IMG/VR virus record: IMGVR_UViG_3300049825_000560
Coordinates: 1-35,891 of that record
Reading direction: 5' to 3' (one strand)
Length of the DNA stretch: 35,891 nucleotides
Source: a virus
In this document: positions 5,555-34,982 of the stretch, piece after piece
How the letters are laid out: each line of letters begins with the position of its first letter
Position numbering within the stretch: the first letter of the stretch is position 1
The notes under the pieces: model-generated
Database searches by the model: none
What the model saw: only the letters and a program-made list of their open reading frames with translations
What the model was told of the DNA's origin: nothing
Position numbers and translations under genes: made by a program

Positions 5555-6067
5555 ATGACTATTCATGTAATGGTAGATATTGAAACTCTTGGTCTTAGTG
5601 TTGATACTAAAATTATTTCAATTGGCGCTGTAATATTCAATGCAGAAGGAATAGTGCATAAATTCTATTCTCCAATTTCTTCTTCAGAAGAAAGTCAAGG
5701 AAATAGATCTATTACACAATCTACAATTGAATTCTGGGAAAAACAATCTATTCCGAGACCTGATTTAATTACAGAAAATTTACTTTCTACGGTACTTAAA
5801 CAATTCTCTGATTGGCTCCCAAAAGAAAAATATGTAATTTGGGCTAATGGAATTACTTTTGATATTTCTATTCTATCTCATGCGTATGGAGATAATCCAC
5901 CTTGGAAATATAATGCAATGCGAGATGCTAGAACTATATATCAAATGTTTGCATTTCAAAAACTTCTTAAACCAGTTAATATAGAAGCACACAATGCATT
6001 GGAAGACTCAATTTATCAAGCAAAATATCTTACTACTATTCTCAATCATAATCAACTTTGGGAGTAA
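5555..6067 (+). CDS. DEDDh 3'-5' exonuclease (DexA/Rv2179c-like)
   Basis: A 170-aa exonuclease of the RNase H-like DnaQ superfamily. The four acidic positions and the histidine are in place: DIETLG (D8, E10), WANGITFD (D103) and HNALEDS (H146, D151), giving the DEDDh pattern. The wording is closest to the T4 DexA / Rv2179c-like group, which degrades DNA or RNA 3' ends. Because the polymerase already carries proofreading, this enzyme more likely trims host nucleic acid, RNA or recombination ends. AAAGGAG lies 10 nt before the ATG. The TAA stop is followed in the same frame by another open reading frame with no ATG. Confidence 0.9.
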   Translation: MTIHVMVDIETLGLSVDTKIISIGAVIFNAEGIVHKFYSPISSSEESQGNRSITQSTIEFWEKQSIPRPDLITENLLSTVLKQFSDWLPKEKYVIWANGITFDISILSHAYGDNPPWKYNAMRDARTIYQMFAFQKLLKPVNIEAHNALEDSIYQAKYLTTILNHNQLWE

Positions 6068-6142
6068 ATCATCTATCATCATTACTTCGAAACAGAACTT
6101 ATCGAACTCAGAGCAGAAATCAATCATCACCCAGAGCTTCTA

Positions 6143-6352
6143 TTGATTCTCCAAGCACAGACTAATATGGATATCTATATCCAACTCTGTGAGATAAGTG
6201 CTTTCTGCGGTGTGATTCTAGATGGAGAATATACTAAAGATGATATACTAAAAGTGTGTAAGGTGTGTACAGATGTGCTAAGATCGAGGAGGATAGGACA
6301 TTTATATAGTCCTGGTATTGTAGATGTAGATGGGAAAGAGATTGTTCAGTGA
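6143..6352 (+). CDS. Hypothetical protein with non-ATG or lost start
   Basis: An ORF of unknown function ending at 6352. The first usual start codon is the TTG at 6143 (69 aa), but the frame is open back to the TAA of the exonuclease gene at 6065-6067, and that extension (about 25 residues, including YFETELIELRAE) reads like protein. A GGAG at 6061-6064 sits six nt before an ATC at 6071, exactly where an ATG would be expected. The gene may therefore start at ATC, have lost its ATG, or be made by readthrough of the exonuclease. The body is helical with several cysteines. Its stop lies in an 8-bp tandem repeat. Confidence 0.5.
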   Translation: MILQAQTNMDIYIQLCEISAFCGVILDGEYTKDDILKVCKVCTDVLRSRRIGHLYSPGIVDVDGKEIVQ

Positions 6353-6368
6353 TTCAGTGATTCAGTGA
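6345..6368 (+). repeat. Three tandem copies of TTCAGTGA
   Basis: Perfect 8-bp direct repeat at 6345-6352, 6353-6360 and 6361-6368. The first copy contains the TGA of the upstream gene; because 8 is not a multiple of 3, the three TGA codons fall in all three reading frames. Confidence 0.9.
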
Positions 6369-6386
6369 CACGTACAGGAGATTAAT

Positions 6387-6650
6387 ATGGATTTTGGTGC
6401 AGTACTAGAAGCAATTAAATACGACGACGCTAAATGCGCTAGAAGTAGTTGGAACGGTAAAGGAATGTTTATTTTTCTTGTGCCGGGATCGAAATTTATT
6501 GTAAATAGACCGCCGCTTTTGGGTATTTATCCAAAAGGGACAGAAATAATTTATTAGGCTCATATAGATATGAAAACAGTTGATGGAACTATTGTTCCTT
6601 GGGTGGCCTCTCAAACTGATTTACTTGCAACAGATTGGGATGTGGTATAG
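6387..6650 (+). pseudogene. DUF2829/Tad2-like anti-Thoeris gene interrupted by amber codon
   Basis: An 87-codon frame that matches the DUF2829 family along its full length: SSWNGKGMFIFLVPGS (20-35), RPPLLGIYPKGTE (41-53), then HIDMKT, GTIVPW and ASQTDLLATDW to the end. Tad2 proteins of this family are known to bind and sequester signal molecules made by Thoeris TIR enzymes, which blocks that defence. Here codon 57, in the segment usually reading YxxHIDMK, is TAG (6555-6557); the frame then continues for 30 more family-like residues to a second TAG. The SD CAGGAG is good. Other genes in this genome end in TAG, so general recoding is unlikely: this is a recent nonsense mutation, a suppressor-dependent gene, or a 56-aa truncated product. 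The lack of other damage suggests the change is young. Confidence 0.75.
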
Positions 6651-6670: not shown

Positions 6671-6710
6671 ATAAAGCCCCAAGGACCTAAATCCAAGGGG
6701 CTTTTTCTTT
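6671..6710 (+). terminator. Bidirectional terminator between convergent arms
   Basis: Hairpin with arms AAAGCCCC (6673-6680) and GGGGCTTT (6697-6704), an AA/AA internal loop and an inner GGA/TCC stem, followed by TTTTTCTTT on the plus strand. It ends the replication arm; read on the other strand the same stem is followed by TTTATT, so it probably also ends the late transcript, whose last gene stops at 6728. Confidence 0.85.
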
Positions 6711-8505: not shown

Positions 8506-9501
8506 TTATCCTCTCAAATATTTAATCTTATATGTTCCACCAAGACGATCTAGCGGATCTTCTGTAGATAAACGAACTATCATTGAGCCGGCCGCAGATA
8601 CTGCACTGAAATCAACTTCACCCATATCTGGAGTATTTTCATCAGAGTCTAGAACTGAGCCCCAAGAGATTAGTATATTATCTGTAGCAGTTATTGCTGC
8701 ATCAGTTACCGTAGCTTCTGCATATTGAGTATCGTAGGCTATACCCGTAATAGTAGCCAGAGAAAAAGTAACTGCACCTCCACCGCTACCTGATGCACCT
8801 CTAGGTCCTACTGGACCAATCATTCCTTCTTCAGGATCGTCAGGTAAGATTGCAAATGCAGGTCCTGCAATACCTTGTGAGCCGTTAGAACCTATAATAC
8901 CATCTATACCTCTAGGTCCAGGAACTGCTATTGCTTCTTCTGGATCATCTCCCGCTAGAATGAAAGCAATAGTTCCTGGAATACCTTGTGAACCATTAGT
9001 ACCTGCAATACCTTGTATTCCTTGTGGACCTGGAACTGCAATAGCTTCTTCCGGGTCATCTGGATTAACTACAAAAGCTACTGTTCCTGGAATACCTTGG
9101 GAACCAGTAGTTCCTGCTGCTCCTGTAGAACCTGGAATAGCAATAGATTCTTCTGGATCATCAGGAGGTAGAGCAAAAACTATATTACCTGAGGGACCAA
9201 TTAAACCTGATGGACCTTGTGCACCTCCAGCACCTGTAGGTCCAGGGAGAGAAATTGCTTCTTCTTCTTGTACCCAATCAGGAAAATACGGAACTCCTGC
9301 TCCACCGCCGCCGGTTCCAGAAGATCCAGGATCTCCTTTAAGTCCTTGAACTCCTCTATCTCCGGGGTCTCCTTGATCTGGATCGACAGAGAAAACTAGA
9401 ACTGGAGTTGTAAGATTATTAGTTGTACTAGATCCAGAACCGGAGCCGGATCCAGAACTTGGAGTTGTAAAAGTAGAACTAATTGGACGATTACAGGCCA
9501 C
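8506..9501 (-). CDS. Collagen-like repeat fibre protein
   Basis: A 331-aa protein probably displayed on the virion. After a Ser/Gly-rich N-terminus (16-26) come short Gly-X-Y tracts (DPGDRGVQGLKGDPG at 45-59, later PGPQGIQGIAG) separated by acidic spacers of the form PDDPEEAIAVPG. The spacer-plus-collagen unit of about 34-37 residues recurs at roughly 114, 148, 185 and 221. The C-terminal 90 residues (242-331) form a beta domain that could trimerise the fibre. It starts with GTG: the frame has no earlier ATG after the preceding TAG, and AGGA lies about 10 nt upstream. Collagen-like fibres in phages usually act as trimeric stalks or surface-adhesion elements; the exact role here is unknown. 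Confidence 0.85.
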   Translation of the reverse strand: MACNRPISSTFTTPSSGSGSGSGSSTTNNLTTPVLVFSVDPDQGDPGDRGVQGLKGDPGSSGTGGGGAGVPYFPDWVQEEEAISLPGPTGAGGAQGPSGLIGPSGNIVFALPPDDPEESIAIPGSTGAAGTTGSQGIPGTVAFVVNPDDPEEAIAVPGPQGIQGIAGTNGSQGIPGTIAFILAGDDPEEAIAVPGPRGIDGIIGSNGSQGIAGPAFAILPDDPEEGMIGPVGPRGASGSGGGAVTFSLATITGIAYDTQYAEATVTDAAITATDNILISWGSVLDSDENTPDMGEVDFSAVSAAGSMIVRLSTEDPLDRLGGTYKIKYLRG

Positions 9502-9516
9502 TAGAAAAATTCCTGC

Positions 9517-9759
9517 CTATCTCAATGCTACCATCGCAGTAGCCGTAGTACCGGTTGCATTAACTCGTGAAGCTTCTACTTGCAGAACAGTTCCTACAGG
9601 AGGCGCTGTAAACAGAATTGCATTACCGTTTATAACTGCGGTAATATTACCTGCACCGCCGACATAGATTGCTCTACAAACCCCTTCTGTAAAATTTGTT
9701 ACATCTGAAGGTGTAATTGCAACTGCTTGTGCATATCCTCTGCCAAGATAACCACTCAT
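9517..9759 (-). CDS. Small phage structural protein (decoration-like)
   Basis: An 80-aa beta protein. It has a widely seen phage pattern: TPSDVTNF, then CRAIYVGGAGNITAVI, then a PPVGTVLQVEASRVNATGTTA stretch near the end (positions about 52-72). Relatives are annotated as hypothetical or head/tail decoration proteins in many tailed phages; a virion role is therefore likely but not proven. The start overlaps the end of the holin gene by four nt. The gene ends in TAG, showing that TAG is used as a true stop in this genome. Confidence 0.7.
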   Translation of the reverse strand: MSGYLGRGYAQAVAITPSDVTNFTEGVCRAIYVGGAGNITAVINGNAILFTAPPVGTVLQVEASRVNATGTTATAMVALR

Positions 9760-25166: not shown

Positions 25167-25757
25167 CTATTCTCCGAATTCTCGAATCTCAGAAGTCATA
25201 AGAAGTCGATATTGTTCTGCAACTTCTTGTGCCATTCCTTTAGCTTCATCAGTTTTACCGATCTGGGAGAATATAGTCCTAGCTGCTCCATATACAATCG
25301 CCCAAGGATGATCTAGAGCGATGAAAGAATCAAAAGTTCCGGTAGTAATATCTGGATGCCTGTAACATCCCATCAGAATATATCGCTCTTCTGTAGAACT
25401 CTTCAAATGTATAATCTCTCCAGCACCGTACCATATATCTGTACGTGCCTGAGAATAAGAATCTAATGCATTTTCTGGGTCAATCTTTGTAAGAAATAAT
25501 CCTGCCGCGCCAGAGACAGGATCATATTTACGAAAATATTTAGCCGCTCGCCATCTAGGAACAAATGTACGATACTCAAAATCTGGCTCAAATTGAGCTG
25601 TTACAAAATCTACCTCCGCTTCATAGATATCTTTATAGTAATAATCTGTGTGATGCGCTTTGAGAGTAGCAGACTGAACCGCAGACAAAGTTTTTGCAAC
25701 CAAATCTGGACGATTCGTTATATTGATAACTTCTGCCTGAAGTTCAGCTAAGTTCAT
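25167..25757 (-). CDS. Head-tail adaptor (connector) protein
   Basis: A 196-aa helical protein. The N-terminus (MNLAELQAEVINITNRPDLV...AVQSATLKAHHTDYYYKD) and the later QARTDIWYGAGEIIHL are characteristic of podovirus adaptor proteins of the gp4/gp11 type, which form a 12-mer ring under the portal and receive the nozzle. It overlaps the preceding 137-aa gene in ATGA (25754-25757). Its place after the capsid and before nozzle-linked genes fits the role. Confidence 0.7.
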   Translation of the reverse strand: MNLAELQAEVINITNRPDLVAKTLSAVQSATLKAHHTDYYYKDIYEAEVDFVTAQFEPDFEYRTFVPRWRAAKYFRKYDPVSGAAGLFLTKIDPENALDSYSQARTDIWYGAGEIIHLKSSTEERYILMGCYRHPDITTGTFDSFIALDHPWAIVYGAARTIFSQIGKTDEAKGMAQEVAEQYRLLMTSEIREFGE

Positions 25758-34697: not shown

Positions 34698-34845
34698 GGG
34701 GGATTCTTGAGGAGTTTATGGGATTTTTTTGTGGATGGATTTTTTAGTTTGGCACAAACTTGAAAAAGTTTAGGAAATTGGAGATGGTTCTTTAGGAAAC
34801 CACAGCCAAGCAGACCCAAAAAAGCCCTCCACCCCTGGTTCTGAA

Positions 34846-34944
34846 GTAAGTACTCACATTGGAACAGGTTAGTAAGCACTCACTACTGATTGGTATGTTA
34901 GTGAGTGCTTACTTCAGATGAATGTGATGTTAGTGAATACTCAC
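34846..34944. repeat. Four operator-like 12-bp dyad motifs
   Basis: Copies: GTAAGTACTCAC (34846-34857), GTAAGCACTCAC (34872-34883), GTGAGTGCTTAC (34901-34912) and GTGAATACTCAC (34933-34944). All approach the palindrome GTGAGTACTCAC, and the start-to-start steps are 26, 29 and 32 bp. Copies 2 and 3 also form a perfect 15-bp inverted repeat. These are the marks of binding sites for a dimeric regulator. Confidence 0.75.
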
Positions 34945-34952
34945 ATCTGGTG

Positions 34953-34982
34953 TTACATACTGTTACTAGTTTGTTGTATATA
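34953..34982 (+). promoter_or_regulatory. Possible early promoter
   Basis: A TATATA (34977-34982) with a weak TTACAT about 18 nt upstream, just after the last operator-like copy and before the 219-aa gene. The -35 is poor, so this is only a candidate; a regulator bound at the repeats could activate or block it. Confidence 0.3.

Follow-up and report, generated by a model that had tools for sequence, protein, structure and literature searches.

The DNA analysed here (the window) is 35,891 nucleotides long and is the entire IMG/VR record IMGVR_UViG_3300049825_000560, which belongs to a podovirus distantly related, by portal and primase, to the Pseudomonas phages PaP2, 119X, and PaMx41 (placed in Fredfastierviridae, Jamesmcgillvirus) and likewise to EBPR podovirus 3. 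On its plus strand, a Tad2-like frame of 87 codons plus its natural TAG terminator lies at 6387-6650, and its translation gives 56 residues, an in-frame TAG at codon 57 (6555-6557, plus strand), 30 residues, and the terminal TAG at 6648-6650. The frame read through the internal TAG matches PF11195 ("Tad2-like", formerly DUF2829; curated cut-off 25 bits) over all 73 profile positions (1-73) with 82.3 bits and an E-value of 3.8e-23. Because the 56-residue part (38.7 bits) and the 30-residue part (41.2 bits) each exceed the cut-off by themselves, the family match is not a product of chance. The preliminary description of this DNA had reported an end-to-end alignment with DUF2829 and a TAG at codon 57 followed by 30 family-like codons, and both observations are borne out. 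A Shine-Dalgarno sequence, AGGAG (6376-6380, plus strand), stands 6 nt ahead of the Tad2 ATG. With normal termination, the predicted product is the 56-residue protein encoded by 6387-6557 (plus strand), and the 30 codons 3' of the TAG (6558-6647, plus strand) still code for the domain's C-terminal portion, as judged by profile score and conserved positions.

Genomic setting and predicted protein

Tad2 is the final gene of the rightward early operon and is followed by a terminator-like inverted repeat at 6673-6704 (no strand assigned; a minus-strand terminator-like site overlaps it) and then by the convergent structural operon. The gene just upstream, at 6071-6352 on the plus strand (or 6068-6352), is conserved in PaP2-like contigs, with homologues in dozens of related ones. 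Its Shine-Dalgarno sequence, GGGAG, is present at 6060-6064, and an ATC stands at 6071-6073 where its best-matching homologues have ATG; from the sequence, either the ATC may serve as the start, or the upstream gene may be impaired as well. The adjacent ATC and TAG oddities would fit relaxed selection at the operon end, and they would also fit a locally poor consensus. Tandem TTCAGTGA copies occupy 6346-6368, at the end of the upstream gene and just 5' of the Tad2 Shine-Dalgarno sequence, and AGTGAGTGCTTAC-like motifs, repeated in both orientations in non-coding DNA at 34840-34960 before the early operon, are possibly operators or an origin.

By portal, the nearest relative found (67% identity) is IMG/VR contig 3300025914_000029 (L178/G009). 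It carries a Tad2 that is 69% identical, in the same slot and preceded by the same upstream gene; in contrast to the window, its Tad2 has no stop and its upstream gene starts with ATG. A more distant contig, L164, also has a stop-free Tad2 in this slot behind the same upstream gene, and the replication genes of both contigs are related to those of the window. In most relatives, the slot has other content or is empty. In a related phage, L134, Tad2 (1391-1642) lies upstream of the DNA polymerase gene and not at the operon end, indicating that Tad2 moves within the lineage.

The AlphaFold2 model of the read-through protein has a pLDDT of 95.1, and a Foldseek search with this protein only (E<=0.001) returned 24 PDB matches, all 24 of them Tad2/AcrIIA7 chains, in structures that hold gcADPR, His-ADPR, cADPR, or cGG or are in the apo state. 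The known members are MoTad2 of a Myroides odoratus prophage (8v3e/9eib), SPO1 Tad2 (8sme-8smg), SptTad2 (8wjd), and HgmTad2/AcrIIA7 (8kbi-8kbk). The read-through frame of the window shares their family and fold over its full length, but their genes are intact and their ligands known, whereas the window gene is interrupted. MoTad2 inhibits type II Thoeris and SPO1 Tad2 inhibits type I (PMC13299392). The preliminary description had called these proteins established Thoeris inhibitors; the assignment to Tad2 stands, but a Thoeris-only label is too narrow, because the solved members bind gcADPR, His-ADPR, or cyclic dinucleotides. Researchers have found that Tad2 is a tetramer; each of its pockets draws on two protomers, which contribute, among other parts, a late strand and the final helix (PMC12043709). 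The 56-residue product stops short of the C-terminal helix and of the last three strands in the model, and since these missing elements help to build the pocket, it should not bind; judging from the model, loss of ligand binding by the 56-residue product is likely.

Codon 57 in the family and the age of the stop

The aligned region is free of stops in all 222 distinct Tad2 relatives from IMG/VR and bacterial genomes, a collection that retains top-scoring matches and is thus slightly biased toward intact copies. Opposite codon 57, these relatives mostly have His (60), Arg (58), Cys (21), Gln (18), or Leu (18), and in no case a stop. An alignment to DUF2829 relatives had been suggested at the outset as a check, and it indicates that the PF11195 family continues past codon 57 and does not terminate there, so a normal family end at codon 56 is ruled out. 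The frame for the complete Tad2-like domain is therefore interrupted in the window. Across 369 bacterial genomes of one class, there were just three Tad2 copies, all without stops, a number too small to give a base rate of broken Tad2 genes. When IMG/VR was searched for another instance of the locus, whatever its codon 57, no match emerged, near-identical records possibly having been left out of that search.

The part of the gene beyond the stop looks like that of an intact copy. Set against 106 close relatives, the 30 codons after the TAG have kept 13 of the 14 conserved sites, and the score of the C-terminal half, 87.8 bits, is in line with that of those relatives (88.3 +/- 11.4). When random substitutions were simulated, 66% of the C-terminal copies with five substitutions and 92% of those with eight fell below the 5th percentile of the relatives, which, together with the intact-like score, indicates that few substitutions have accrued if selection on that part has ended. 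Such preservation means that the lesion is young, or an error, or bypassed; the downstream frame is undecayed, and in the reading favoured here the nonsense mutation is recent. The N-terminal half lies at the 14th percentile among the relatives and deviates at three conserved positions (A6, G14, and G21), so that function ahead of the stop is not assured either. In both halves of the gene, the differences between the window Tad2 and that of L178 fall mostly at third positions, a bias that reflects the long-term history of the gene.

Alternative readings of the internal TAG

Among the alternatives to a natural nonsense allele, the one that survives best is a consensus error or a minority variant, in which the TAG, and perhaps the upstream ATC, would be an artefact or the allele of one strain and the gene would be intact in the population. 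The locus is represented by a single IMG/VR record with no second copy found (in a search that possibly omitted near-identical records), and the two single-base oddities, ATC and TAG, lie within 485 bp of each other, both of which speak for this reading. On the other hand, the 41 other genes of the window contain no internal stop in 11,264 codons, and by our own estimate, one nonsense codon made by error implies about twenty substitution errors per contig, which is high for a normal assembly. We therefore consider an error or minority variant unlikely, though it deserves to be kept in mind.

Still less probable is conditional expression, in which a host amber suppressor or natural read-through would yield some full-length Tad2 and a low level of function would be kept. 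The frame is well preserved beyond the TAG and the base that follows it is G, as this explanation would have it; a purine after TAG favours suppressor tRNAs. However, no stop occurs at codon 57 in the 222 relatives, no tRNA was found in the phage record, the RNA surrounding the stop shows no folding beyond that of shuffled sequences (z -1.39), and internal TAG is absent from the 41 other genes. Because no relative has a stop at codon 57, the site is not a conserved read-through site, and with ordinary RNA folding as well, a conserved read-through element was ruled out.

That the 56-residue product is a functional shortened variant of Tad2 seems very improbable. The Tad2 start codon and Shine-Dalgarno sequence are intact, so a short protein could be made, but the strands and helix after residue 56, which help to form the pocket in solved Tad2 (PMC12043709), would be missing, none of the 222 relatives is shortened by a stop, and the tail, which would then be useless, shows no decay.

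The preliminary description had judged global amber recoding unlikely on the grounds that three other genes (80, 548, and 65 aa) end in TAG. The three genes it named do so, but the count falls short: a fourth, of 196 aa, lies at 25167-25757, and the Tad2 frame itself also ends in TAG. For the 80-aa and 196-aa genes, nearly all relatives end where the window gene does, mostly with TAA or TGA, and the relatives of the 548-aa gene terminate nearby. Relatives of the 65-aa gene were sought for comparison and none were found, nor did a search with the 548-aa protein as a route to relatives return any. Around the first of these genes (8506-9759), the 80-aa gene and the 331-aa gene that follows it, with a GTG start and collagen-like repeats share a frame and stand 15 nt apart. 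A TAG-recoded phage would show many in-frame TAG codons and/or a suppressor tRNA, and the window shows neither, with 0 internal TAG in the 11,264 codons and no tRNA genes found when the whole record was searched. The judgement of the preliminary description is thus confirmed, and genome-wide decoding of TAG as an amino acid, for which the one TAG inside the Tad2 frame is the sole support, is excluded by the 41 genes without internal TAG, the failure to find a suppressor tRNA, and the four other genes that end in TAG, two of them where their relatives stop.

A parallel with acb2 and a possible trade-off

In PaP2-type phages, the same early-operon end carries acb2, which is another sponge gene. 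The acb2 of PaMx41 (orf24 in the literature, KNT55_gp25 in NC_055711) is cut at codon 37 by an in-frame TAG and, this stop apart, is nearly identical to PaP2 acb2, which is intact. A second natural loss of acb2 is found in FBPa48 (L183, 589-705), in which an internal deletion leaves 34 codons. The gene is intact in the seven cases that could be read fully (PaP2, PaMx33, Neko, Ph_15, 119X, 20Aug470, and TF17) and falls in an assembly gap in PaMx32. When PaMx41 was placed under selection by a CBASS host in the laboratory, the stop was lost and full-length Acb2 was made (PMC10419184; PMC12043709). Researchers have also found that T4 phages evade Panoptes through the loss of Acb2 and that SptTad2 activates Panoptes slightly, and the premature stop of PaMx41 acb2 was put forward in the same work as evidence that natural phages sometimes abandon sponges and as a possible natural trace of a sponge trade-off (PMC12657218).

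Like the PaMx41 acb2, the window Tad2 is a sponge gene that comes last in the early operon, before a convergent structural operon, and is cut by an in-frame TAG with the remaining frame preserved. The two phages have related DNA polymerase, primase, portal, and large internal virion proteins, which are about 26-33% identical. They differ in that PaMx41 has the Acb2 fold and not Tad2, with the stop at codon 37 instead of 57, and in that PaMx41 is cultured and its recovery under CBASS selection has been demonstrated, whereas the window phage is known from its sequence only. By this analogy, the window Tad2 is consistent with the same process as the PaMx41 acb2, whichever pressure acted.

The window gene combines a premature stop, a preserved downstream frame, and intact copies in relatives, as a nonsense-inactivated sponge allele does. 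The preliminary description had left three options, namely fresh inactivation, a host suppressor, and variation in the population, and fresh inactivation is the best supported of them, since the tail is undecayed and acb2 of PaMx41 and FBPa48 provides a parallel at the same slot. Thus, the TAG at codon 57, as read from one metagenomic consensus sequence, probably marks a nonsense allele of recent and natural origin, by which a nucleotide-sponge gene of the Tad2 family is inactivated. Going by family and fold, the uninterrupted protein would assemble into a homotetramer and sequester a nucleotide signal produced by host defence (gcADPR, His-ADPR, or, in other subtypes, a cyclic dinucleotide), thereby blocking the effector. 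The amber codon would end translation after 56 of the 87 residues, with loss of the C-terminal strands and helix that build the pocket. A sponge may not always be worth keeping, either where the current host has no matching defence or where guards such as Panoptes punish sponges, and by analogy with the PaMx41 acb2, a single step could restore a nonsense allele once the defence is back. More speculatively, and with little confidence, the early-operon end in this podovirus lineage might be a contingency slot in which sponge genes (Acb2 and Tad2) are repeatedly silenced by single nonsense mutations and later restored, with hosts switching back and forth between defences that sponges overcome (Thoeris and CBASS) and guards that sponges set off (Panoptes).

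The gene is an anti-defence gene of a known kind, and the interest of the finding is the parallel with the PaMx41 acb2 rather than any novelty of mechanism. If the allele is what it appears to be, it would be a second natural case of this kind, affecting another family of sponges at the same genome position in an uncultivated phage that is only distantly related. If both alleles were present in the reads, one could measure in the wild how evasion of nucleotide-based immunity is traded against triggering it.
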